A stretch of DNA of 10,942 bases from Devosia sp. (lineage in GTDB: Bacteria > Pseudomonadota > Alphaproteobacteria > Rhizobiales > Devosiaceae): contig JAEUMC010000596.1 in NCBI GenBank assembly GCA_016793415.1, positions 1 to 10,942 on the forward strand, in the 5' to 3' direction. This document shows, one piece after another, positions 818 through 10,942 of this stretch. Within the stretch, counting starts at the first letter, position 1; every line of letters begins with the position of its first letter. Made by a program: the position numbers and the translations under genes. The notes below the pieces were generated by a model. The model had not been told where the DNA came from. It saw nothing but the letters and a program-made list of their open reading frames with translations, and searched no databases.

Positions 818-837
818 TGCTGGCGGAGAGAAAGGGA
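818..837. repeat. Left attachment-site-like direct repeat (att copy)
   Basis: The sequence TGCTGGCGGAGAGAAAGGGA is identical to 3255-3274, where it is the 3' end of tRNA-Ser read on the complementary strand. Flanking bases diverge at once on both sides (preceding G versus C; following AACTC versus TTCGA). This marks the exact limits of a duplicated recombination core. Confidence 0.8.
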
Positions 838-1190
838 AACTCCGCTCGTGGCCAACAACACAGCAAAATCAGCTACTTAAAGCCGCTCGCGTTCACCTCG
901 CTGTATCATCTCACTGTAACACCCACAAGGCTTTCATCGAGCGACGGAAGAAGCACGGTCCGGCAGTAGTGCCACCACTGGCGAAGCATCGACAGTCGGC
1001 GACCTGATCGCGACCCGCCCACTACAGCTTCCATCTGGGAAGTACGTCGCTTGGGACCGTTGGTGCCAGCCTCACTACTGCTCCCACAGGCAAGGTTCCG
1101 CTCCAGAGGCCGCCATACCCGCCGCCGCCAGGGCGGCATGATCGCCTTCGTCGCGGTCGAACCATTCTCCAAACCAACAGCCGAGGCCCG
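838..1190. other. Left-end interior of the element, no supported gene
   Basis: About 350 bases lie between the left att repeat and the first start signal of the polymerase-like gene. Short open stretches occur in all three forward frames (for example one reading VGDLIATRPLQLPSGKYVAWD around 990-1060), but they are broken by stops, lack ribosome binding sites and match nothing I know. It also contains CACTGTAACA at 912-921, which recurs near the other end of the element. Confidence 0.4.
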
Positions 1191-1229
1191 ATGAAAAACC
1201 TGACCGCAGGTCCCGACACTTTCCCCCCC
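1183..1229 (+). promoter_or_regulatory. Probable original start region and C7 frameshift site of the polymerase-like gene
   Basis: GAGG at 1183-1186 precedes ATG 1191 by four bases and begins a peptide MKNLTAGPDTFPP. A run of seven C at 1223-1229 follows. Removing one C would join this start to the frame of the 1267-2631 gene, through RDLNHSRPLDFNLWAEGG, which is free of stops and protein-like. The gene's own frame has no ATG before residue 157. Either the run carries an indel (mutation or sequencing error) or it slips. Confidence 0.45.
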
Positions 1230-1266
1230 GCGCGACCTGAACCACTCCCGCCCGCTCGACTTCAAC

Positions 1267-2631
1267 TTGTGGGCCGAGGGCGGGGCCATCACAGACCTCA
1301 GCAAATGGGTTCTGGAGCAGTCGTTCGCCGGTGCTGCCCGCAAGGGCACGGAGAGGCAGCTTCGGGTGATCCTAGCAAACCTCTACGCTGCCTGGGCGGA
1401 GGACCCTGGGTTGTCCGTCGCGTTGTCGTTGACCAACTCCGCGTACAAGGCGAAGAGCCGCTACAACTCCACCAAACTCTCGAACCAGGTCATCGACGTC
1501 GTGGGTCAGCTGTCGGATGAGGGCTACCTCCACGGCGCGCTGGGCTTCAACGACCGCAGGCTCCACACCGGACGCACGACCCGCATCTGGCCCTCGCAGC
1601 AACTTGTGGGGCTATTCGAGCAAGCTCAAGCCAGAAGGCCGCGCCTCACGGTTGCGCCGGGCACGGAGTTGATCATTTTGAAGGATGCAGCGGGGCGGCC
1701 CGTAGAGTACGCCGACACCGCCGACACGGTCTCGATGCGCTCAGACCTGCGGGCCTACAACGATCTGCTGGCTAGGACCTTTATCGACATCCCCGAGCGG
1801 GACCAGCCGTTTCTCTCTCTTCCTAGGGGTGGAACGTTGGAGATCAGCCAGAGCAACAAGGTGGTCCGCCGAGTGTTCAATCGAGGGTCCTGGGAGAAGG
1901 GCGGGCGGTTCTACGGTGGCTGGTGGCAGAGTTGCCCGAAGGATTGGCGACGGCGCATCTTCATCAACAACCAGCCGACCATCGAGGACGACTACTCTGG
2001 CCTTCACATCGTGATGCTCTACGCCCGACAGGGTATCGACTACTGGGCCAGTGTTGGCCTGGATGCTGACCCCTACCACGTCGTCGGCATCAAGGGCTTC
2101 GAGGGCGACAGCCGCGCCTCGCGAGCTTACGCGAAGTCGCTTCTCTTGATGGCGATCAACGCCGGTTCTGACAAGTCTGCGTTCCAGGCGTTCCGTTCCG
2201 ACATGCGCAGCCGCCAAGACTATCGAGGCGCGAAGATAACTGACGCCCAACTCTCCGCGCTCCTCGACGCGCTGAAGGAAAAGCACAAGCCGATCTCCGA
2301 GTTCATCGGCGCTGGAGCTGGCATCGACCTCATGAACCAGGACGCCAAGATCACGGCAGAGGTGATCCGGCGCTTCGTTGATGCGAGGAGACCGATCCTG
2401 ACCATTCACGACAGCTACATCGTCATGTTCGGGGATGACCAACGCCTGCGGGCTGTGCTCAAAGCAGCCTTCGAGAAGGTGACGGGGATACCGACGGTGC
2501 ATCTGAAGCGGACTGGCATCGGCTTCAGTGATGTTGCTCAGGGTCATGACGCAGACGGGCTGGGGTCACTGACCCACCAGCACCGCACTGACGGCTACCT
2601 CGAAAGGCTGTCGGACTTCCACTCCTCGTAG
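1267..2631 (+). CDS. Divergent family A / T7 RNAP-like polymerase-palm protein with N-terminal winged-helix-like region
   Basis: A 454-residue frame from TTG 1267 to TAG 2631; the gene has no name I recognise. Residues 64-112 resemble a winged helix: a recognition-like helix KLSNQVIDVVGQLSDEGYL, then a wing ending GRTTRIWPSQQL. Residues 204-222 contain a Trp/Gly-rich block (RFYGGWWQ). Then come polymerase-like motifs in order. Motif A is DYSGLH with D242. Motif B is R286-x3-K290-x7-N298. A Q358-centred helix follows (LMNQDAKITAEVI), then motif C, IHDSYIV, with D382. R-x3-K-x7 spacing equals the O helix of Pol I and T7 RNAP, and HDS is the T7 RNAP form of motif C; DNA polymerases have HDE. Position 298 is Asn where Tyr/Phe is usual. 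No exonuclease domain is visible. The frame is open back to 1204 with no Shine-Dalgarno before TTG; a better start (GAGG, ATG 1191) lies in another frame across a C7 run, so the true N-terminus is probably longer. Activity is inference. Confidence 0.7.
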   Translation: MWAEGGAITDLSKWVLEQSFAGAARKGTERQLRVILANLYAAWAEDPGLSVALSLTNSAYKAKSRYNSTKLSNQVIDVVGQLSDEGYLHGALGFNDRRLHTGRTTRIWPSQQLVGLFEQAQARRPRLTVAPGTELIILKDAAGRPVEYADTADTVSMRSDLRAYNDLLARTFIDIPERDQPFLSLPRGGTLEISQSNKVVRRVFNRGSWEKGGRFYGGWWQSCPKDWRRRIFINNQPTIEDDYSGLHIVMLYARQGIDYWASVGLDADPYHVVGIKGFEGDSRASRAYAKSLLLMAINAGSDKSAFQAFRSDMRSRQDYRGAKITDAQLSALLDALKEKHKPISEFIGAGAGIDLMNQDAKITAEVIRRFVDARRPILTIHDSYIVMFGDDQRLRAVLKAAFEKVTGIPTVHLKRTGIGFSDVAQGHDADGLGSLTHQHRTDGYLERLSDFHSS

Positions 2632-2665
2632 GTTTGCTTGGGAGGTGTGTGATCCGAGAGTGGGA

Positions 2666-2755
2666 AGGTCGGGTGTGATGGAAGTCCCACAGCCGAGCCA
2701 GTCGACGGCTGGTGACCTACTCGTCGTCCATTACTAGTAACTTTCTACCCGACCT
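2666..2755. repeat. Inverted repeats between convergent element genes, possible terminator
   Basis: AGGTCGGGT at 2666-2674 is the exact reverse complement of ACCCGACCT at 2747-2755. Nested inside is CAGCCG (2690-2695) paired with CGGCTG (2706-2711). The structure lies between the ends of the polymerase-like gene and the truncated integrase, and the outer right arm overlaps the integrase stop codon. It could fold as a bidirectional terminator or mark the junction where the integrase gene was cut. There is no U tract, so the call is weak. Confidence 0.35.
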
Positions 2756-3167
2756 GCCGCAGGATGCTGTCGTCGCCTACCTCGACATACTCGTCGAAGC
2801 TGGGAACGGGAGCTTCTGGCTTCGGTTCGTCCCCCTCGAAGAAGCCCTCAAGGCGCGTTTCCTCGTCCTCTTGTAGGAGGTGCGCGAAGTACAACTCCTC
2901 GATCTTGGCGACCTGCGCCTTCGTCAACTCGGAGAGTGGAGGCTCAGCATCGAGTGCAAGCTGCTGGCGGTGTGCGGCAAATCGTTCGTCTACCTCGGCA
3001 GCCGCCCTACGGACCTTCACCAGCGCCTCGCCGGGGTCCTTGGTGCGAAGCGAGAACGTCTCCTCCGTTTTCGGGTACGTCGCGGCTATGTCCACTGGGA
3101 TCGACGCACGGTGGTAGTAGGTCGTTCCTCGAAGAAGGAGGCGAGGGTGCTTCGGCATGTCGTTCAT
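2745..3167 (-). pseudogene. Tyrosine integrase, N-terminal remnant (140 aa)
   Basis: The 140-residue product starts at ATG 3167 and stops at TAG 2745-2747. Residues 8-65 (PRLLLRGTTYYHRASIPVDIA, then FSLRTKDPGEALVKVRRAAAEVDERF) match the N-terminal arm of tyrosine integrases of the YYxRxxIPxDL...SLxTKDpxeA type found in alphaproteobacterial islands. Full-length members have roughly 350-500 residues. Here the core-binding domain and the catalytic domain with its R...HxxR...Y set are absent. After a linker rich in Glu and Pro (FEGDEPKPEAPVP) the frame ends, and the following bases do not continue the family in any frame I read. The gene therefore cannot encode an active recombinase. Its position 88 bp from the tRNA-borne repeat, reading inward, is typical for the integrase of such an element. 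A short accessory DNA-binding product remains possible. Confidence 0.7.
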
Positions 3168-3173
3168 GGCCCC

Positions 3174-3184
3174 ACTGTAACAGT
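3174..3184. promoter_or_regulatory. Short palindrome just upstream of the integrase start
   Basis: ACTGT-A-ACAGT is a perfect 11-base palindrome six bases before the integrase ATG (3167). Its larger context CACTGTAACA (3173-3182) recurs in the same orientation at 912-921. The two copies lie 73-74 bases inside their respective att repeats. It could be an operator or an integrase arm-type site. This is inference from position and symmetry only. Confidence 0.3.
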
Positions 3185-3254
3185 CTGGTGGAACGGCGTG
3201 AAGCTGATGTGCCTGATTTTGCTGGAGTTCTTGAGTTTACTGGCCTCAAGAAGC

Positions 3255-3274
3255 TGCTGGCGGAGAGAAAGGGA
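3255..3274. repeat. Right attachment-site-like direct repeat within tRNA-Ser
   Basis: This is the second perfect copy of the 20-mer at 818-837. It spans three bases beyond the tRNA, the encoded CCA, the discriminator, the 3' acceptor strand and part of the T-stem of tRNA-Ser(GGA). It is the likely tRNA-proximal end of the integrated element; the tRNA itself stays intact. Confidence 0.8.
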
Positions 3275-3347
3275 TTCGAACCCTTGAGACGGTTCCCCGC
3301 CTACACACTTTCCAGGCGTGCGCCTTCGACCACTCGGCCATCTCTCC
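3258..3347 (-). tRNA. tRNA-Ser (anticodon GGA)
   Basis: Read on the minus strand, the acceptor strand GGAGAGA (3347-3341) pairs perfectly with TCTCTCC (3268-3262), followed by discriminator G (3261) and an encoded CCA (3260-3258). The D-arm region is TGGCCGAGTGGTCGAAGGC. The anticodon stem CACGC/GTGTG encloses the loop CTGGAAA, giving anticodon GGA, which reads UCC and UCU. A long variable arm (TAGGCGGGGAACCGTCTC) and the T-loop GGTTCGAATCC follow. Length 90 nt, the long variable arm and G73 all agree with a class II tRNA-Ser. Its 3' end is the target of the adjacent integrative element. Confidence 0.97.
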
Positions 3348-4660: not shown

Positions 4661-5296
4661 TCAGGCGCGTGGCTGCGGCACGATGCGCAGGTACGGCTTG
4701 AGGGTCTTCCAGCCTTCGGGATATTTCTCACGCGCCGCCTCGTCGGAGACGGCGGGAACGATGATCACGTCTTCGCCCGACTTCCAGTTCACCGGCGTTG
4801 CCACCTGGTGCTTGGCAGTGAGCTGCAGGCTGTCGATGACGCGCAGAATCTCATCGAAGTTGCGGCCGGTGGAGGCCGGATACTCGATCTTGAGCTTCAC
4901 CTTCTTGTCCGGCCCGATAACGAACACCGACCGCACGGTCAGCGAGTTGTCGGCGTTCGGGTGGATCATGTCGTACTTGCGCGCGACTTCGCCATCGACG
5001 TCGGAGATCAGCGGGAAATTCAGCGTCGCGCCCTGCGTCTCGGCGATATCGGCGGCCCAGCCGGCATGGTTCTCGAGCTTGTCGACCGAGAGGCCCAGCA
5101 CCTTGACGCCGCGCTTGTCGAACTCGGGCTTCAGCTTGGCGGTATAGCCGAGCTCGGTGGTGCAAACCGGAGTGAAATTCTTCGGGTGCGAGAACAGCAC
5201 GGCCCAGCCGCCGTCGATGTAATCGTGGAAGCGGATGCGACCTTCGGTGGTCTCCGCCTCGAAATCGGGGGCGGTATCGCCGATGAGAATTGCCAT
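4661..5296 (-). CDS. 1-Cys peroxiredoxin (Prx6 subfamily)
   Basis: A 211-residue thiol peroxidase that reduces hydrogen peroxide and organic hydroperoxides in the cytoplasm. ATG 5296 is fixed by AAGGAG six bases upstream. The opening GDTAPDFEAETTEG and the active-site block SHPKNFTPVCTTELG place the peroxidatic cysteine at C45; P38 and T42 complete the PxxxT/SxxC motif. C45 is the only cysteine in the protein, so no resolving partner exists, as in the 1-Cys Prx6 class. Later family landmarks are GLSVDKLENHAGWAADI, FPLISDVDGEVARKYDMI, and the long C-terminal extension with TPVNWKSGEDVIIVPAVSDEAAREKYP, typical of Prx6 and absent from short AhpC proteins. Length is normal for the subfamily. It is monocistronic, with a terminator downstream and a palindrome over its putative -35 element. 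Confidence 0.95.
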   Translation of the reverse strand: MAILIGDTAPDFEAETTEGRIRFHDYIDGGWAVLFSHPKNFTPVCTTELGYTAKLKPEFDKRGVKVLGLSVDKLENHAGWAADIAETQGATLNFPLISDVDGEVARKYDMIHPNADNSLTVRSVFVIGPDKKVKLKIEYPASTGRNFDEILRVIDSLQLTAKHQVATPVNWKSGEDVIIVPAVSDEAAREKYPEGWKTLKPYLRIVPQPRA

Positions 5297-5385
5297 GATG
5301 AACTCCTTGATGCGGGTCGTTGCCACTTCGGGCCAATGCCGCGCGCAAATATCGAACGAGGGCCAGTCGATTGCGACCGCGCCGC

Positions 5386-5420
5386 ATGAAATCTTTTTGT
5401 GTTTTGCCGTCAAGCGGCAA
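5386..5420 (-). promoter_or_regulatory. Putative peroxiredoxin promoter with overlapping operator-like palindrome
   Basis: On the minus strand TTGACG (5413-5408) and TTTCAT (5391-5386) are 16 bases apart, about 90 bases upstream of the start codon. The perfect inverted repeat TTGCCG-N5-CGGCAA (5404-5420) covers the -35 hexamer completely, a position where a bound repressor would block RNA polymerase. The regulator is not identifiable from sequence. Confidence 0.4.
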
Positions 5421-5513
5421 CAACCGCTTCCGTAACGGTGCGGTCCACAGCAAAATCAGTGTGATAGGTCGGTTCTGGCCTGCAGCACCGTTGCAGACGA
5501 TGAAGCTCGGGGA

Positions 5514-5705
5514 TCAGATCAGACCGCTGGCGAAGCCGCGCTCGAGGGCGACGGCGATGGCCATTGGCGGGGTCAGCGCCAAAGCCAGGGCAAGCGGCTG
5601 GCTGAGCCGCGCCACCCGGCCGATCAGAAACACCACGACGATGAAAAGCAGCGAGGCGGCGATGGTCGCCGAACCCTGCTGCAGTGGCGGCAGCCAGCTG
5701 AACAT
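5514..5705 (-). CDS. Small hydrophobic membrane protein (63 aa), function unknown
   Basis: ATG 5705 follows GGGAGG (5718-5713) by seven bases, a strong start signal. Two membrane segments are evident: about residues 13-29 (ATIAASLLFIVVVFLIG) and 36-53 (QPLALALALTPPMAIAVA). They are joined by a short basic loop RVARLS, so the ends probably lie outside with the loop in the cytoplasm. No cysteines or motifs suggest a function and I recognise no family. It sits alone between the peroxiredoxin and creA genes on the same strand, with more than 200 bases on each side. Its start signal and hydrophobic pattern argue against chance. Confidence 0.65.
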   Translation of the reverse strand: MFSWLPPLQQGSATIAASLLFIVVVFLIGRVARLSQPLALALALTPPMAIAVALERGFASGLI

Positions 5706-5849
5706 GATCGTGCCTCCCGAAACCCGCTGACGGGCATCGGGGCCAGCCTGCGCGCCCAGAGCTTGCCCGGGGGTTGTTTGGTTCGGTCGGGGTTAAATCG
5801 AGTTTGAAGCAGTTCAATGCGGCTTGTGCCGTCGCCGGTGCCGCACTTC

Positions 5850-5897
5850 CCCCTCTCCCCCGCGGACGCTCTCGCGTCCGCCAGGAGGGGCGAGGGG
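5850..5897. repeat. Intergenic palindromic element / possible terminator of the creA unit
   Basis: The core GCGGACGC-TCTC-GCGTCCGC (5862-5881) is a perfect 8-bp hairpin. Outside it CCCCTCTCCCC (5850-5860) pairs with GGGGCGAGGGG (5887-5897) with one mismatch. The whole forms a long imperfect palindrome about 50 bases downstream of the creA stop. Its CCCTC/GAGGG composition resembles the larger inverted repeat at 9518-9629, so both may belong to a dispersed repeat type of this genome (inference). Confidence 0.55.
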
Positions 5898-5943
5898 ACG
5901 CGAGACCAGGGGCGGTGCGCGAGCCCCGCGGAAGCGAACTCGG

Positions 5944-6501
5944 CTAGATGCCGCCCGCTGCCGCGCCGGCAGCCGGTGCTGCTGCAGCGGCAGCTGGCGA
6001 GCCCTTGGGCGCGCCATTGGTCCAGGTGACGTCGAGCCCGGTGAGCGGCACGACAGAAAGCGACATCTTGCCCGAGCCCTGCTGCAGCTCGCGCGAGTGG
6101 GCGAGATAGACCAGCGAGTTGTTCTCGGCGTCGTAGATGCGCGAGACGCGCAGGCTCTTCCAGATCAGCGAGCGCGACTGCTGGAAGATCTCTTCGCCGC
6201 CCTTGTTGGTGTTGATATTGCCGATGGTGACCGGACCGGCCGCGGCGCAATCGACCGCCGAATAGGACGGATCCTCGAACCAGTTGCCCTGCTGCAACCG
6301 GTCGATCAGCGAGCGGTTGAAATAGGCGACGTGGCAGACCACGCCTTTCACCTCAGGATCGGCCACGGCTTCGACGTTGATATCGTTGCCGGTCCAGTCG
6401 ACCCCGACACGCCCCACATCGGTGCCGTTATTGTTGCCGCACGCGGCGAGCGCGCCGGTGAGAACGAGGGCGAAGCCGAGGGAGGCGAGGCGCTTGAGCA
6501 T
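5944..6501 (-). CDS. creA: CreA family protein, predicted lipoprotein
   Basis: The 185-residue product from ATG 6501 begins MLKRLASLGFALVLTGALAAC, a signal peptide whose LAAC lipobox puts the lipid-modified cysteine at C21. The mature part carries the CreA family pattern: VGRVGVDWTGNDINVEAVADPEVKGVVCHV, then ISFN-equivalent YFNRSLIDRLQQGNWFEDPS, and IGNINTNKGGEEIFQQSRSLIWKSLRVSRIYD, then LVYLAHSREL and SLSVVPLTG. CreA lies in the cre locus of E. coli, but its function is unknown. The tail GSPAAAAAAPAAGAAAGGI is a low-complexity Ala-rich extension not needed for the family. The frame is open upstream, but only 6501 gives a signal peptide at the N-terminus. The Shine-Dalgarno is poor. It lies 100 bases after the Rdx-like gene on the same strand and may be the last gene of that unit. 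Confidence 0.9.
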   Translation of the reverse strand: MLKRLASLGFALVLTGALAACGNNNGTDVGRVGVDWTGNDINVEAVADPEVKGVVCHVAYFNRSLIDRLQQGNWFEDPSYSAVDCAAAGPVTIGNINTNKGGEEIFQQSRSLIWKSLRVSRIYDAENNSLVYLAHSRELQQGSGKMSLSVVPLTGLDVTWTNGAPKGSPAAAAAAPAAGAAAGGI

Positions 6502-6601
6502 GCTTGGGGTCCAGGGGTTCGGGTTGCGGACGGCCGTGATGTGGGGACCGTGCCGCGCCCACGCAACGGCAGGGGCCGCAATTGTTGTCCCCCCTGGCCG
6601 C

Positions 6602-6913
6602 TCAGGAGTGTCCGTGCTTGGCCGCGGGGCCGTGCGGATGGTCGATATGGCCGAGGTCGCGGCCGGGATCGATCCGATCGCGCACCAGCTGCTTGATCTG
6701 CTTGGCATCGGGGAAGCCGCCATCGCGCTTGCGCTCCCAGATCAGGACGCCATCGAGATGGATCTCGAAAATGCCGCCAGTCCCGGGGACCAGCGACACC
6801 TCGCCCATTTCGAGGCCGAAGGTGGAGAGCACCTCCTGTCCCATCCAGGCGGCACGCAGCAGCCAGTTGCACTGGGTGCAGTAGGTGATGGCAAGCTTGG
6901 GTTTGCCGGTCAT
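6602..6913 (-). CDS. SelW/SelT/SelH (Rdx) family CxxC protein
   Basis: A 103-residue thioredoxin-like protein. The N-terminus KLAITYCTQCNWLLRAAWMGQE holds C12-x-x-C15, the redox motif of the Rdx family, here with two cysteines and no selenocysteine codon. The following segments FGLEMGEVSLVPGTGGIFEIHLDGVLIWERKRDGGFPDAKQIKQLVRDRI give the family's GTGGxFE and W-x-RK-x-GGFP signatures. Members are thought to act in thiol redox reactions, but bacterial substrates are unknown. The C-terminus PGRDLGHIDHPHGPAAKHGHS is His-rich and may bind metal (inference). ATG 6913 overlaps the stop of the upstream cyclic-nucleotide-fold gene in an ATGA junction, so it is translationally coupled and needs no separate ribosome binding site. 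Confidence 0.92.
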   Translation of the reverse strand: MTGKPKLAITYCTQCNWLLRAAWMGQEVLSTFGLEMGEVSLVPGTGGIFEIHLDGVLIWERKRDGGFPDAKQIKQLVRDRIDPGRDLGHIDHPHGPAAKHGHS

Positions 6914-7350
6914 ATCTGCGGATCCGCCCAGGAGGAGAACACGTTGGTGGGCAACACCAGCACGTCGTCCTGTTCGTCTTCGCGGCTCTTCAGCGCCACC
7001 AGTTGCGCCGTCGTGGTGTTGACGCGCTGCGCCAGCAACCGGGCGATCTGCAACAGCCAGGAAGGGTGCGCCTCGAGCACAACCAGCGCGTCGTTGATGA
7101 CGTAGAGCTGCACGTCGGTCACCGCCCGCACGGTCGCCGAATGCGGGCGCTCGAGCAGCACGCTCATCTCGCCGAAGATGGCGCCGGGCTGCTTGATGGT
7201 GGAGACGAACTTGCCGTCGCGCAGCACTTCGACCTCGCCATCCTTCAGCACCATGAAGCTGCCGCCGGCCTGCCGGCCCTGCACGATCAGCTCCGTGCCG
7301 GCGGGGAAGAAATCGAACTTCAGCCAGCTTTCCGTTTCTTCAGCCGCCAC
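6910..7350 (-). CDS. Cyclic-nucleotide-binding-fold protein, second of a tandem pair
   Basis: The 146-residue product starts at GTG 7350, eight bases after GGGAG. It is a stand-alone cNMP-binding (cupin-like) domain with no DNA-binding or catalytic domain. Residues 14-53 give FFPAGTELIVQGRQAGGSFMVLKDGEVEVLRDG. The phosphate-binding cassette is FGEMSVLLERPHSATVRA (59-76), followed by the C-helix HPSWLLQIARLLAQRVNTTTAQL. The cassette has the conserved Gly-Glu (E61), but His70 stands where Arg normally binds the cyclic phosphate, so cAMP/cGMP binding is doubtful. It lies 14 bases after the paralogous upstream gene and overlaps the Rdx-like gene by four bases. A regulator or sensor subunit for that gene is a reasonable guess. 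No partner is proven. Confidence 0.9.
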   Translation of the reverse strand: MAAEETESWLKFDFFPAGTELIVQGRQAGGSFMVLKDGEVEVLRDGKFVSTIKQPGAIFGEMSVLLERPHSATVRAVTDVQLYVINDALVVLEAHPSWLLQIARLLAQRVNTTTAQLVALKSREDEQDDVLVLPTNVFSSWADPQI

Positions 7351-7364
7351 TGGAGCAACTCCCG

Positions 7365-7790
7365 TTATTCGAGCAGTGCGAAAATCTTGTCGAACATGTC
7401 CTGGTCCTCGCGGACCTTGGCCTGCCGGCGCATGTCGACCAGCAGCGCCGTGGTCTTGTGCAGCCGAGCCGCCAGCAACCTGGCGATATGCCGGGCGGCG
7501 GCCGGATGCGCATCGAGGAAAGCGTCGGCGTCTTCGGCCACATGCACCTCGGCGCCGGTGCGCGTCCGGACCGTCGCCGAATGCGGCAGATCGAGCAGGG
7601 CGGACATATCGCCGATCACCGAGCCGGGGTCGCCGATGGCGGCGACGGTGCTGCCGTCACGCACCACCTCGAGCTCGCCGGACTTGAGGATATAGAGCTT
7701 GCCGGTCCGCGCCCCTTCGCTCACCAGCACGGCCCGTGGTCCCAACACGCTCAGCGGCAGCGTCGCCGCTGCCTCGAGGATCTGCTCCAT
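7365..7790 (-). CDS. Cyclic-nucleotide-binding-fold protein, first of a tandem pair
   Basis: A 141-residue single-domain protein from ATG 7790; an in-frame TTG lies directly before it. The domain runs through VLVSEGARTGKLYILKSGELEVVRDG, the cassette IGDMSALLDLPHSATVRT (59-76), and the helix HPAAARHIARLLAARLHKTTALL. It aligns with the next gene along its whole length, with the cassette at identical positions, so the two are tandem duplicates. Here the cassette Glu is Asp61 and the phosphate-contacting Arg is His70, so it is even less likely to bind cAMP canonically. The tail QAKVREDQDMFDKIFALLE is a charged helix. It is the first gene of the minus-strand cluster leading to the Rdx-like gene, divergent from queF. 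Confidence 0.9.
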   Translation of the reverse strand: MEQILEAAATLPLSVLGPRAVLVSEGARTGKLYILKSGELEVVRDGSTVAAIGDPGSVIGDMSALLDLPHSATVRTRTGAEVHVAEDADAFLDAHPAAARHIARLLAARLHKTTALLVDMRRQAKVREDQDMFDKIFALLE

Positions 7791-7793
7791 CAA

Positions 7794-7995
7794 CCCAACC
7801 CACCCGAAGACACCGGCCCGATGGTAGCCGAGCTTTGTGAGGATGCGAAGTCATTCGGCAAGGGTCGTCGATTTTGCTGGCGGCAGTTCCCATGCACGGC
7901 GTAATGAGGCGCTCGCGCCGGCCACCGCCGGTTGCGAGCCCGAAAAACCTCCCGTCCCCGGCCACCTGCCGGGCCCGACCTCAGGAGAGACGACG
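7794..7995. other. Divergent intergenic region between the cNMP-fold operon and queF
   Basis: About 200 bases must carry both promoters. I find no convincing -35/-10 pair for either direction. There is no preQ1 riboswitch-like pseudoknot that I can recognise; the segment before queF is G+C rich with only short dyads (for example CCGGCC and GCCGGC blocks). AGGAG at 7983-7987 is the queF ribosome binding site. Confidence 0.4.
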
Positions 7996-8442
7996 ATGAC
8001 GACTTCCGTGCTCGGCCGCCCGGCCGAGATTCCGCTCGATCCGGCCAGCGCCGTGCTCGACCGGGTGCCGAACCCGCACCCCGACATCGACTACCTGATC
8101 CGCTTTACGGTGCCGGAATTCACCGCGCTGTGCCCGATCACCGGGCAGCCGGATTTCGCCCACCTGGTCATCGACTATGTCGCCGACCAGTGGATGATCG
8201 AGAGCAAATCGTTGAAGCTGTTCATGTTCTCGTATCGCAACCATGGCGCCTTCCATGAGGCGACGACGGTGGAGATCGGCAAGCGCCTCGTTGAAGCCCT
8301 CGCTCCGCGCTGGCTCAGGATCGGTGGCTACTGGTATCCGCGTGGCGGCATCCCGATCGACGTGTTCTGGCAGACCGGCACGGCGCCGGCCACGCTGTGG
8401 CTCCCCGAACAGGGCGTCCCGGGCTATCGCGGACGCGGCTAA
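7996..8442 (+). CDS. queF: NADPH-dependent 7-cyano-7-deazaguanine reductase QueF, single-domain type
   Basis: This enzyme reduces the nitrile of preQ0 to the aminomethyl group of preQ1 with two NADPH, in the cytoplasmic part of queuosine tRNA-modification synthesis. The 148-residue product from ATG 7996 (AGGAG eight bases upstream) has the short type I length. [16 protein letters not shown] carries the thioimide-forming Cys46 and the proton-donor Asp53, with the same seven-residue spacing as C55/D62 of the B. subtilis enzyme. [21 protein letters not shown] is the QueF signature, with the substrate-binding Glu of ESKSLK and the terminal [18 protein letters not shown] completes the T-fold. The frame is open further upstream, but the family start and the ribosome binding site fix 7996. 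No other queuosine gene is visible in the window. Confidence 0.97.
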
Positions 8443-8460
8443 CACACGCCTTTGCAGCGC

Positions 8461-8490
8461 TTGAGCGGCCGGTTGGCGTTCCACTATGGT
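8461..8490 (+). promoter_or_regulatory. Possible promoter of the DUF1624 gene
   Basis: TTGAGC (8461-8466) and TATGGT (8485-8490) are 18 bases apart, in the 77-base gap after queF and 29 bases before the next start codon. The downstream gene could instead be read through from queF. Confidence 0.35.
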
Positions 8491-8519
8491 CGCCCAAGGC
8501 AAGCGGGGAGTCGGAACAG

Positions 8520-9545
8520 GTGAGTCGTGACGAGAGCAGCGGGCAGCGGCCCCGCTACCAGCTGCTCGATCTCTTACGTGGCGTGGCGATCATCGCCATG
8601 GTGGTCTTCCACATCGCCTGGGACCTCTATTACTTCGGGTACTCCGACGTCGACGTCACCACGGTGCCGGGCTGGGTGATCTTCCAGAAGTCGATCGTCT
8701 CCAGCTTCCTCCTCCTGGTCGGCGCGGGGCTGGTGCTGGCGCATGGCAAGGCCATCCGCTGGCAGAAATTCTGGCGCCGCTTCGGTATCCTCGTGGGCTG
8801 CGCCCTGCTGGTAACCGCCGGCACCTACTGGATGTTCCCCGACTACTTCGTGTTCTTCGGCGTGCTGCATGCCATTGCGTTGTTCTCGCTCATGGCCCTC
8901 GCCTTCCTCAGGCTGCCGCCCTGGCTGGTGGCGGCCATCGGGGCCGCGGTGATCGCGGCGAATTTCCTCTACACCGATCCGGTGTTTTCGAGCCGCGAGC
9001 TCGGCTGGATCGGCTTCTGGCCGAGCTCGCCGCCGACCAGCGACGTGGTGCCGATCTTCCCGTGGTTCGGCGTGGTGCTGCTGGGGATCGCGGCGATGCG
9101 GCTGATCCTTGCCTCACCGCTGGCGGAGGATCTGGCACAGTTCCACAGCAAGGAGCCGCTGGCGCGCGGGCTGGCATGGATGGGCCGCTGGAGCTTGCCG
9201 ATCTACGTCCTCCATCAGCCGCTGATCATCGGGGTGCTGTGGGGCCTGACGCAGCTCTCGGCGCCGGTGCTGGCGCCGCCGGTGCTGAGCCTCAGCCAGG
9301 ATTTCGTCAAAAGCTGCACCAGCGCCTGCCTCGGCACCGGATCCGACCTCGCGCGCTGTGACCGCTATTGCGGCTGCGCGGTCGAGCAGGTGGAGACCGG
9401 GAACCTCTGGGAAGCGGTGGCCGCGACCGAGCCGACGCTGGAGCAGAACACGCAGCTCAGGGCCGTGGCCCAGCTGTGTACGGCGATGGCGGACAGTCCC
9501 GATGCAGGTGCAGAGCCGACCCCCACCCCTGCCCCCTCCCCCTAA
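8520..9545 (+). CDS. DUF1624 multi-pass membrane protein (HGSNAT-like acyltransferase fold) with Cys-rich C-terminal tail
   Basis: The 341-residue product starts at GTG 8520, nine bases after GGGGAG (8505-8510). The N-terminal signature LLDLLRGVAIIAMVVFHIAWDLYYFG (R20, H31, D35) is that of DUF1624, related to heparan-alpha-glucosaminide N-acetyltransferase, in which a membrane histidine is used for acyl transfer. About seven hydrophobic segments follow, with FFGVLHAIALFSL and the closing block WMGRWSLPIYVLHQPLI typical of the family. After the last helix (about 255) a soluble segment begins: C266-x3-C270-x9-C280-x3-C284-x-C286 plus C320. The donor and acceptor are unknown. The last eight residues (TPTPAPSP) and the stop are encoded by the arm of a large inverted repeat, so the original C-terminus may have been altered. 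It lies 77 bases after queF on the same strand. Confidence 0.88.
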   Translation: MSRDESSGQRPRYQLLDLLRGVAIIAMVVFHIAWDLYYFGYSDVDVTTVPGWVIFQKSIVSSFLLLVGAGLVLAHGKAIRWQKFWRRFGILVGCALLVTAGTYWMFPDYFVFFGVLHAIALFSLMALAFLRLPPWLVAAIGAAVIAANFLYTDPVFSSRELGWIGFWPSSPPTSDVVPIFPWFGVVLLGIAAMRLILASPLAEDLAQFHSKEPLARGLAWMGRWSLPIYVLHQPLIIGVLWGLTQLSAPVLAPPVLSLSQDFVKSCTSACLGTGSDLARCDRYCGCAVEQVETGNLWEAVAATEPTLEQNTQLRAVAQLCTAMADSPDAGAEPTPTPAPSP

Positions 9546-9629
9546 ACATGGGGAGGGAGACCCCCACACGGATATCGAGACTGACGTCTCCCTCCCCCTG
9601 TTTAGGGGGAGGGGACAGGGGCGGGGGTC
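9518..9629. repeat. Large inverted repeat (two 44-base arms) between convergent genes
   Basis: Arms 9518-9561 and 9586-9629 are reverse complements at 41 of 44 positions, separated by 24 bases. Each arm is itself a smaller dyad, CCCTCCCCCTAAACAnGGGGAGGG. The left arm contains the TAA stop of the DUF1624 gene; the right arm ends 20 bases before the gnd stop. It would fold into a very stable stem in RNA from either side, so it probably acts as a bidirectional terminator. The nested-dyad form suggests a dispersed intergenic repeat of this genome (inference). Confidence 0.85.
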
Positions 9630-9648
9630 CGCGGCCACCGGGTGATGT

Positions 9649-10626
<978 letters not shown>

Positions 10627-10682
10627 GATGCACACTCCACTGTAGCGACTGACGCGGAGGGTGTTATACGCGACATCGAGAT

Positions 10683-10699
10683 CACGGGGGCAGCCCGTG
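10683..10699 (+). promoter_or_regulatory. Hairpin just before the ribosome binding site of the SDR gene
   Basis: CACGGG-GGCAG-CCCGTG is a perfect 6-bp dyad ending one base before GAGGAGG (10701-10707). In the mRNA leader it could limit access to the ribosome binding site; as DNA it could be an operator in the shared gnd/SDR promoter region. A TTATAC sequence at about 10663-10668 may be a -10 element. Confidence 0.3.
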
Positions 10700-10714
10700 T
10701 GAGGAGGAACGACT

Positions 10715-10942
10715 ATGCGGGTAGTGATTACCGGGGGCGCCGGGAACCTGGGCAGCAAGCTCCGGGAGCACCTGGAAACGGCCGACTGGGTGGAGGAGAT
10801 CGTCGCCATCGACGTCGCGCCATTTACCGCGGGCAAGAAGACCCGGGTGGTGGTCGCCGACCTCGCCGACCCCTATGACGAGCGCTGGCGCAAGGAAGCG
10901 CAGGCGGCCGACGGGATCGTGCATTATGCCTCGGCCAATCCG
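10715..10942 (+). CDS. NAD-dependent epimerase/dehydratase (extended SDR), N-terminal part
   Basis: ATG 10715 follows GAGGAGG by seven bases and the frame is open to the window edge (76 residues). [20 protein letters not shown] carries the extended-SDR TGxxGxxG motif (G7, G10, G13). Asp33 at the end of the second strand (EIVAIDVAP) indicates NAD(H) preference. Asp49 in VVVADLADP is the adenine-contacting residue. HYASANP near the edge corresponds to the conserved HLAA-type strand 4. The catalytic Ser/Tyr/Lys lie outside the window. Substrates of the family are nucleotide sugars or related compounds; the specific one cannot be told. It is divergent from gnd, so the two may share regulation. 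Confidence 0.9.

Follow-up and report, generated by a model that had tools for sequence, protein, structure and literature searches.

The closest described relatives of the gene analyzed here are of four kinds. The TV-Pols, described by Iyer et al. in 2008 (PMC2579912), have an arginine in a hairpin, two aspartates, a fingers aspartate and an RxxxK motif, and are never fused to a nuclease; their genes neighbor a D5 helicase, a lambda-type integrase or a resolvase, and their hosts include alphaproteobacteria. CcPol-MP, a TV-Pol of staphylococcal cassette chromosome (SCC) elements, primes and extends DNA with a preference for deoxynucleoside triphosphates (dNTPs), according to the available portions of two papers (PMC7581432, PMC10061031). 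The divPolA2 group of phage family A DNA polymerases (PolA) was published in 2024 by Yutin et al.; the accessible part of that paper (PMC11348598) presents a model of the member AUR84708, with a palm and an N-terminal globular domain, and reports one to three paralogues beside the regular polymerase of the phage, in variable neighborhoods. Pipolins, as described in an excerpt of PMC7385651, are elements inserted at tRNA genes that carry a recombinase, a polymerase gene and variable cargo, the polymerase being of family B. Here we analyzed a stretch of 10,942 nucleotides from Devosia sp. (the whole of which is referred to as the window), in which a small element at a tRNA-Ser gene carries a frame that very probably encodes a palm polymerase of the family A / T7 RNA polymerase (RNAP) type, judging from its sequence.

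The polymerase frame comprises 454 codons (1267-2631, + strand, start codon TTG at 1267) and its product was assigned to PHROG family 4756, annotated as 'unknown function' (E 1.9e-50), as were AUR84708 (E 2.3e-91) and the Barba19A gene (E 4.2e-65). A preliminary description of this DNA had read 1191-2631 as a single protein, which did not hold: the ATG at 1191 is not in the frame of the TTG at 1267, and 1191-2631 consists of two frames joined. In the start region (1191-1266, + strand) the ATG and the family N-terminal residues are out of frame with the rest. Similarity to the family, read in the frame of 1267, already starts at 1225, and the entire N-terminus of a relative that is 84% identical (P0002) lies in a single frame; the reading frame of the window copy is therefore broken close to the gene's start, by either a mutation or an assembly error.

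No Pfam or NCBIfam family matched the window protein at E values up to 10. This includes DNA_pol_A (PF00476), RNA_pol (PF00940), the T7-type N-terminal domain PF14700 and, at the N-terminus, where a winged helix had been proposed, any Pfam family of winged-helix type. The absence of an exonuclease, also proposed, was borne out, as Pfam identified no exonuclease or nuclease domain in the window protein or in the relatives scanned. A 'DNA polymerase' PHROG matched residues 349-392 at no better than E 0.26, and searches of PDB sequences with the window sequence and with the family profile returned endoglucanase chains alone, as weak matches.

Conservation was assessed with 44 aligned sequences (the window protein and 43 relatives, picked from 120 listed proteins) and with alignments of 141 and 148 rows, from which homologous open reading frames (ORFs) shorter than 400 residues (14 of 109) and duplicates were left out. 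A tree was inferred from 104 of the 148 rows. The motifs DYSGLH (D242), R286-x3-K290-x7-N298 and IHDS (D382), named in the preliminary description, were found at those positions of the 454-codon frame. D242, R286, K290, N298, D382 and S383 were invariant in the 44-sequence alignment, and each was kept in at least 137 of the 141 more diverse rows. In the 148-row alignment the motif A aspartate D242 (1990-1992, + strand) was kept in all rows, R286 in 145, K290 in 147, N298 in 146 and D382 in 147. The same alignment kept R214 in 146 rows and the fingers aspartate D268 in 139; G213-R214 (1903-1908, + strand) is the counterpart of the TGR motif ahead of motif A. The counterpart of the O helix, with R286, K290, L294 and N298, lies at 2122-2160, and motif C, H381-D382-S383, at 2407-2415, both on the + strand. 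The alignment of homologues that had been proposed as a check on these residues upheld D242, R286, K290 and D382 and did not uphold Q358, which was glutamine in 22 of 141 rows; its neighbor D359 was kept in 134 of 141.

In profile-profile alignment (hhalign), motifs 1, A, B and C followed the order of their PolA counterparts and were in register with them, in line with the family A motif order noted in the preliminary description. The P value was 1e-4 for the whole family and 8e-6 for its phage branch, and the corresponding reversed controls gave 0.61 and 0.86. The PolA set contained 48 sequences retained at 70% identity from 105 candidates, these being drawn from 77 of 80 viral loci, where frames exceeded 350 residues, and from 28 of 30 loci of bacteria. 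It replaced a first set (30 PolA from one phylum, with or without T7 DNA polymerase) that gave P values of 0.0064-0.31, with integrase and reversed controls at 0.077-0.74. The hhalign comparisons were run in three rounds of 20, 9 and 12, and P values are per comparison and uncorrected. T7-like RNAPs (41 close relatives) were also used as a bridge and showed no link to PolA (P 0.68 and 0.43) or to the family (P 0.064-0.13), so hhalign cannot rank whether the family is more like an RNAP or more like a DNA polymerase. Together, conservation and motif register argue for the divergent single-subunit polymerase of family A / T7 RNAP palm type that had been suggested. Compared with family A DNA polymerases and T7 RNAP themselves, the window protein differs in its lack of a Pfam match, in its His, Leu and Asn sites, and in having neither an exonuclease nor a T7-type N-terminal domain.

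The family agrees with the TV-Pols in the hairpin arginine (R214), the two aspartates, the fingers aspartate (D268), the RxxxK motif and the absence of a nuclease, and integrase or resolvase genes are neighbors in its loci. Loktanella, Sulfitobacter and Roseovarius occur both in a figure legend of PMC2579912 and among the loci of this family. It differs in that a D5 helicase was not located in 25 elements carrying the gene, as far as contig numbers could be matched, and the family is likened to the 2008 TV-Pols by description. With divPolA2, as far as the available text shows, it shares the PHROG family of AUR84708, the same barbavirus genes and a palm without exonuclease; the differences are that the window copy belongs to an integrative element rather than a phage, and that it has H/N/S where AUR84708 has E/Y/E (steric gate, O-helix site and third residue of motif C). 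Because the phage branch is the divPolA2 published in 2024 and the element branch fits the TV-Pol description of 2008, the polymerase is not undescribed, although the preliminary description had put it forward as a candidate for that. It is a known, little-studied kind of polymerase, and the points of note are its H/N/S active site and the series of variants in phages.

A further comparison was made with Ma-LMM01. In a blind scan of its 116 frames, gp030 ranked first with two models of the phage branch (E 0.028 and 0.011), while frames other than gp030 were best for the whole-family and chromosomal models (E 0.76 and 0.92). Since gp030 is next to transposases and came out ahead of all other frames with two of the four models, we infer that it is the TV-Pol of Ma-LMM01. 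The gp030 group aligned with the family at P 1.7e-4 (the worst control, reversed RNAP, gave 0.0084), a moderate similarity, and this group is without the Arg of RxxxK.

At the sites of Glu710, Phe762 and Tyr766 of Pol I, the profile alignment placed His247 (2005-2007, + strand), Leu294 and Asn298 of the window protein, and motif C reads HDS. The Glu gate, the aromatic O-helix residues and the HDE of family A DNA polymerases are all absent from it. Tyr766 of Pol I corresponds to Tyr714 of the Bacillus fragment, and the O-helix Tyr of T7 RNAP is Tyr639. The Bacillus fragment has Glu658, Phe710 and Tyr714 at these sites; according to PMC7200780 they are conserved throughout family A, and ribonucleoside triphosphates are excluded less well once the gate Glu is lost. 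The H/N/S state was found in 133 of the 148 rows. The preliminary description had allowed for either altered substrate choice or lost activity where Asn replaces the O-helix aromatic residue; because Asn298 is kept in nearly every row, its family-wide presence makes an altered handling of substrates the more likely of the two. The H/L/N site may form a relaxed pocket with respect to sugar choice.

Five phage proteins have a Glu gate, and in all five the third residue of motif C is Glu or Asp. Two are E/Y/E (AUR84708 and a gene of phage ICP1, L139:1998-3302, which is DNA-polymerase-like in this respect), two are E/N/E and one is E/N/D. The HDS reading of motif C was therefore right in its letters, with S383 kept in 137 of 141 rows, but it does not extend to this phage clade. 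In the tree the five proteins formed one supported clade, so the Glu gate and the acidic motif C residue represent a single event and not independent covariation. In the Ma-LMM01 group, as in the window protein, position D+5 is His and position K+8 is Asn, and the H/N combination may therefore be an old TV-Pol trait.

A protein search scored 8000 candidates and found 475 homologues at E ≤ 0.001; of the 120 listed, 28 were longer than 560 residues. A tblastn search with the window protein matched 174 phage records (115 Rheinheimera, 40 Vibrio, 11 Aeromonas and others), including barbaviruses, and the best 40 of the 174 were annotated as hypothetical throughout. Four plasmids had a match. With the window's own genome included, homologues were present in 29 of 385 genomes of its class (about 7%, E ≤ 0.001) and in 29 of 397 genomes of its order (E ≤ 1e-10). 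The class screen undercounts, because one locus (L266:14365-17289), seen on reading the region to hold a polymerase homologue and its own integrase at tRNA-Leu, comes from a genome (G381) that is absent from the 29 matches. The best 80 of 264 loci in named genomes were mostly from Alphaproteobacteria, with a small number from other groups. In two phage loci (L003:4812-10633 and L004:4575-8481) the polymerase was near a ribose-phosphate pyrophosphokinase and a gene of the nicotinate phosphoribosyltransferase cluster, of the type used in nicotinamide adenine dinucleotide (NAD) salvage; in the second, the pyrophosphokinase directly follows the polymerase gene.

The best 80 loci, all from cellular genomes and chosen for having the polymerase gene, were also examined for element structure. 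A tRNA gene was found in 50 of them, and in 27 the polymerase was flanked on one side by a tRNA gene and on the other by an exact repeat of at least 17 bp of that gene. These 27 loci spanned 4.9-15.0 kb and involved eight kinds of tRNA, and 26 of them contained an integrase of one cluster, in which 9 of 10 scanned members had Phage_integrase. As background, such a repeat occurred in 149 of 5000 random 150-base segments (25 loci, true attachment (att) sites included). The tRNA att sites, the recombinase and the variable cargo are features shared with pipolins, as far as the text available on these goes; the pipolin polymerase is of family B, whereas the motifs here register with family A and the protein has no Pfam family. 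Among 145 other ORFs of at least 110 residues in 25 elements, 112 were scanned; six had a resolvase domain and the rest were mixed, some matching defense models (Pycsar cyclase, viperin, HIT proteins). No conserved partner gene of the polymerase was seen in these 25 elements. CcPol-MP, on the available accounts, is likewise a TV-Pol on an integrative element with a family A active site, but it has an OB-fold partner and a helicase, and the two are likened by description. Used as a query, the integrase of the L028 element had 21 matches in 9 of 385 genomes. We rejected the polymerase as an obligatory partner of this integrase, since the L028-type integrase is mostly found without it; L270, for example, is a 3-kb repeat-bounded element with an integrase and one other frame and no polymerase. 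No description of family A tRNA elements of this kind was found in the literature searched, which omits most subscription papers.

The window itself comes from a fragmented draft genome (1006 contigs, 82.5% complete). Exact att-like repeats of 20 bp are at 818-837 and at 3255-3274, the latter over the 3' end of the tRNA-Ser gene (GGA; 3258-3347, - strand) that is the insertion site. They bound 2.4 kb (818-3257) containing the polymerase frame together with a 140-codon integrase remnant (2745-3167, - strand), which has the N-terminal DUF6538 only (E 3.9e-17); DUF6538 also starts intact tyrosine integrases of other elements, for example L028 and L046. These repeats, like those of the 27 loci, support the earlier proposal of a tRNA-borne element. 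Because the catalytic part of the integrase is missing, the element is expected to be immobile by itself, and with its truncated integrase and frame break the window copy looks like a decayed 2.4-kb remnant. To the right of tRNA-Ser the DNA is syntenic in congeners, with up to 89% identity, while to the left nothing in 13 congeners (12 with 1.5 kb and one with 0.3 kb) aligns to the window; a 14th congener was left out because its left flank was too short. The sole alignment among the left flanks of those 13 congeners was 84 bases between two of them, and no empty insertion site was found among the congeners compared. Positions 1-817, left of the att repeat, had no match in 81 genomes of the bacterial family except two stretches of about 30 bases. 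The tRNA-Ser gene is regarded as a hotspot because the left flanks differ among congeners and 1-817 is unmatched in the family, and 1-817 is probably a further accessory insert in it.

With slightly better than even confidence, we read the gene as encoding a TV-Pol/divPolA2-type enzyme of small tRNA-inserted pipolin-like elements that starts and extends DNA strands in element replication. From their anatomy, such elements would integrate at the 3' end of a tRNA gene by means of the tyrosine integrase. The enzyme would combine the palm and fingers of family A, in which both metal-binding aspartates and the RxxxK helix are kept, with an N-terminal domain peculiar to it, and would have no exonuclease; the motifs, their conservation and the model published for AUR84708 all point to polymerase chemistry. 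Priming on element DNA would parallel CcPol-MP, a TV-Pol with measured primase activity, and a sugar pocket relaxed by His in place of the gate Glu, and by Leu and Asn in the O helix, may aid the first nucleotides. We give a primase-polymerase role an even chance.

Several observations weigh against this reading. The chromosomal branch alone aligned with PolA at a mere P 0.0012 (control 0.38), and the positive controls, T7-like RNAPs and the Ma-LMM01 group, gave no alignment to PolA (P 0.43 and 0.59). To the D5 helicase that was not located in the elements there were matches in 8 of 24 host genomes, one of them maybe about 8 kb from another polymerase copy (L081). No clear iterons were seen in the 52 segments next to the gene that were taken from 25 elements and the window: in 6 of the 52 the most frequent 10-mer was one copy above the best of six shuffles, and it never exceeded four copies. 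Among 17 fetched regions with the L028-type integrase, three had the polymerase and one a remnant, and in one of the three (L266) the polymerase is next to a second integrase. The phage copies lie in variable neighborhoods beside the regular polymerase, in the text available, and this fits an accessory enzyme equally.

It is possible, though unlikely, that the protein is an active polymerase carried as cargo rather than a replicase, namely a repair, translesion, defense or counter-defense enzyme exchanged by large phages and islands. L028-type integrase elements without the polymerase are common, phages are reported in the accessible text to keep one to three paralogues by the regular polymerase, and the other genes of the elements are mixed and include the matches to defense models. 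The polymerase is nevertheless spread over many tRNA elements with differing cargo, although the loci were chosen for the gene, and TV-Pols on other elements work with a replication helicase, according to the portions of the papers available. A single-subunit RNAP transcribing element or phage genes, in the manner of T7 RNAP, is an improbable alternative: 146 of 148 rows have Asn in place of the T7 RNAP O-helix Tyr, Pfam found no T7-type N-terminal domain, and CcPol-MP, the TV-Pol measured so far, favors dNTPs in the available accounts. That the protein is no polymerase, its motifs being due to chance or its palm dead and used for binding only, would agree with the lack of Pfam and NCBIfam matches and the weak endoglucanase matches in PDB, but is very improbable given the conservation and motif register, the negative reversed controls and the model of AUR84708 in the accessible text.

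Elsewhere in the window, Pfam identified ordinary chromosomal genes in 4661-10942, encoding a 1-Cys peroxiredoxin, CreA, an Rdx-family protein, QueF, an HGSNAT-type acetyltransferase, 6-phosphogluconate dehydrogenase and the start of an epimerase. Two adjacent short proteins at 6910-7793 (- strand) have one cyclic nucleotide-binding domain each.

A broader proposal, which we regard as speculative and doubtful in its full form, is that a class of pipolin-like tRNA elements widespread in Alphaproteobacteria has as its signature a minimal palm polymerase of family A whose sugar pocket is rewired (His gate, Leu, Asn, HDS) and which is primer-independent and takes both ribonucleoside triphosphates and dNTPs. 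It would share ancestry with large-phage enzymes; among these, the clade that includes AUR84708 and the ICP1 gene would have kept or regained E/Y/E. If true, there would be a natural series from a DNA-polymerase-like to an altered active site inside one family. Pol I and T7 RNA polymerase have minimal relatives in the TV-Pols and divPolA2, for which the literature searched, as far as its text was available, reports an assay for CcPol alone. The phage and element branches of one family supply natural variants, E/Y/E, E/N/E, E/N/D and H/N/S, for probing the shift between DNA synthesis, RNA synthesis and priming. These data suggest that pipolins have a counterpart with a family A polymerase in about 7% of the sampled genomes of the class.
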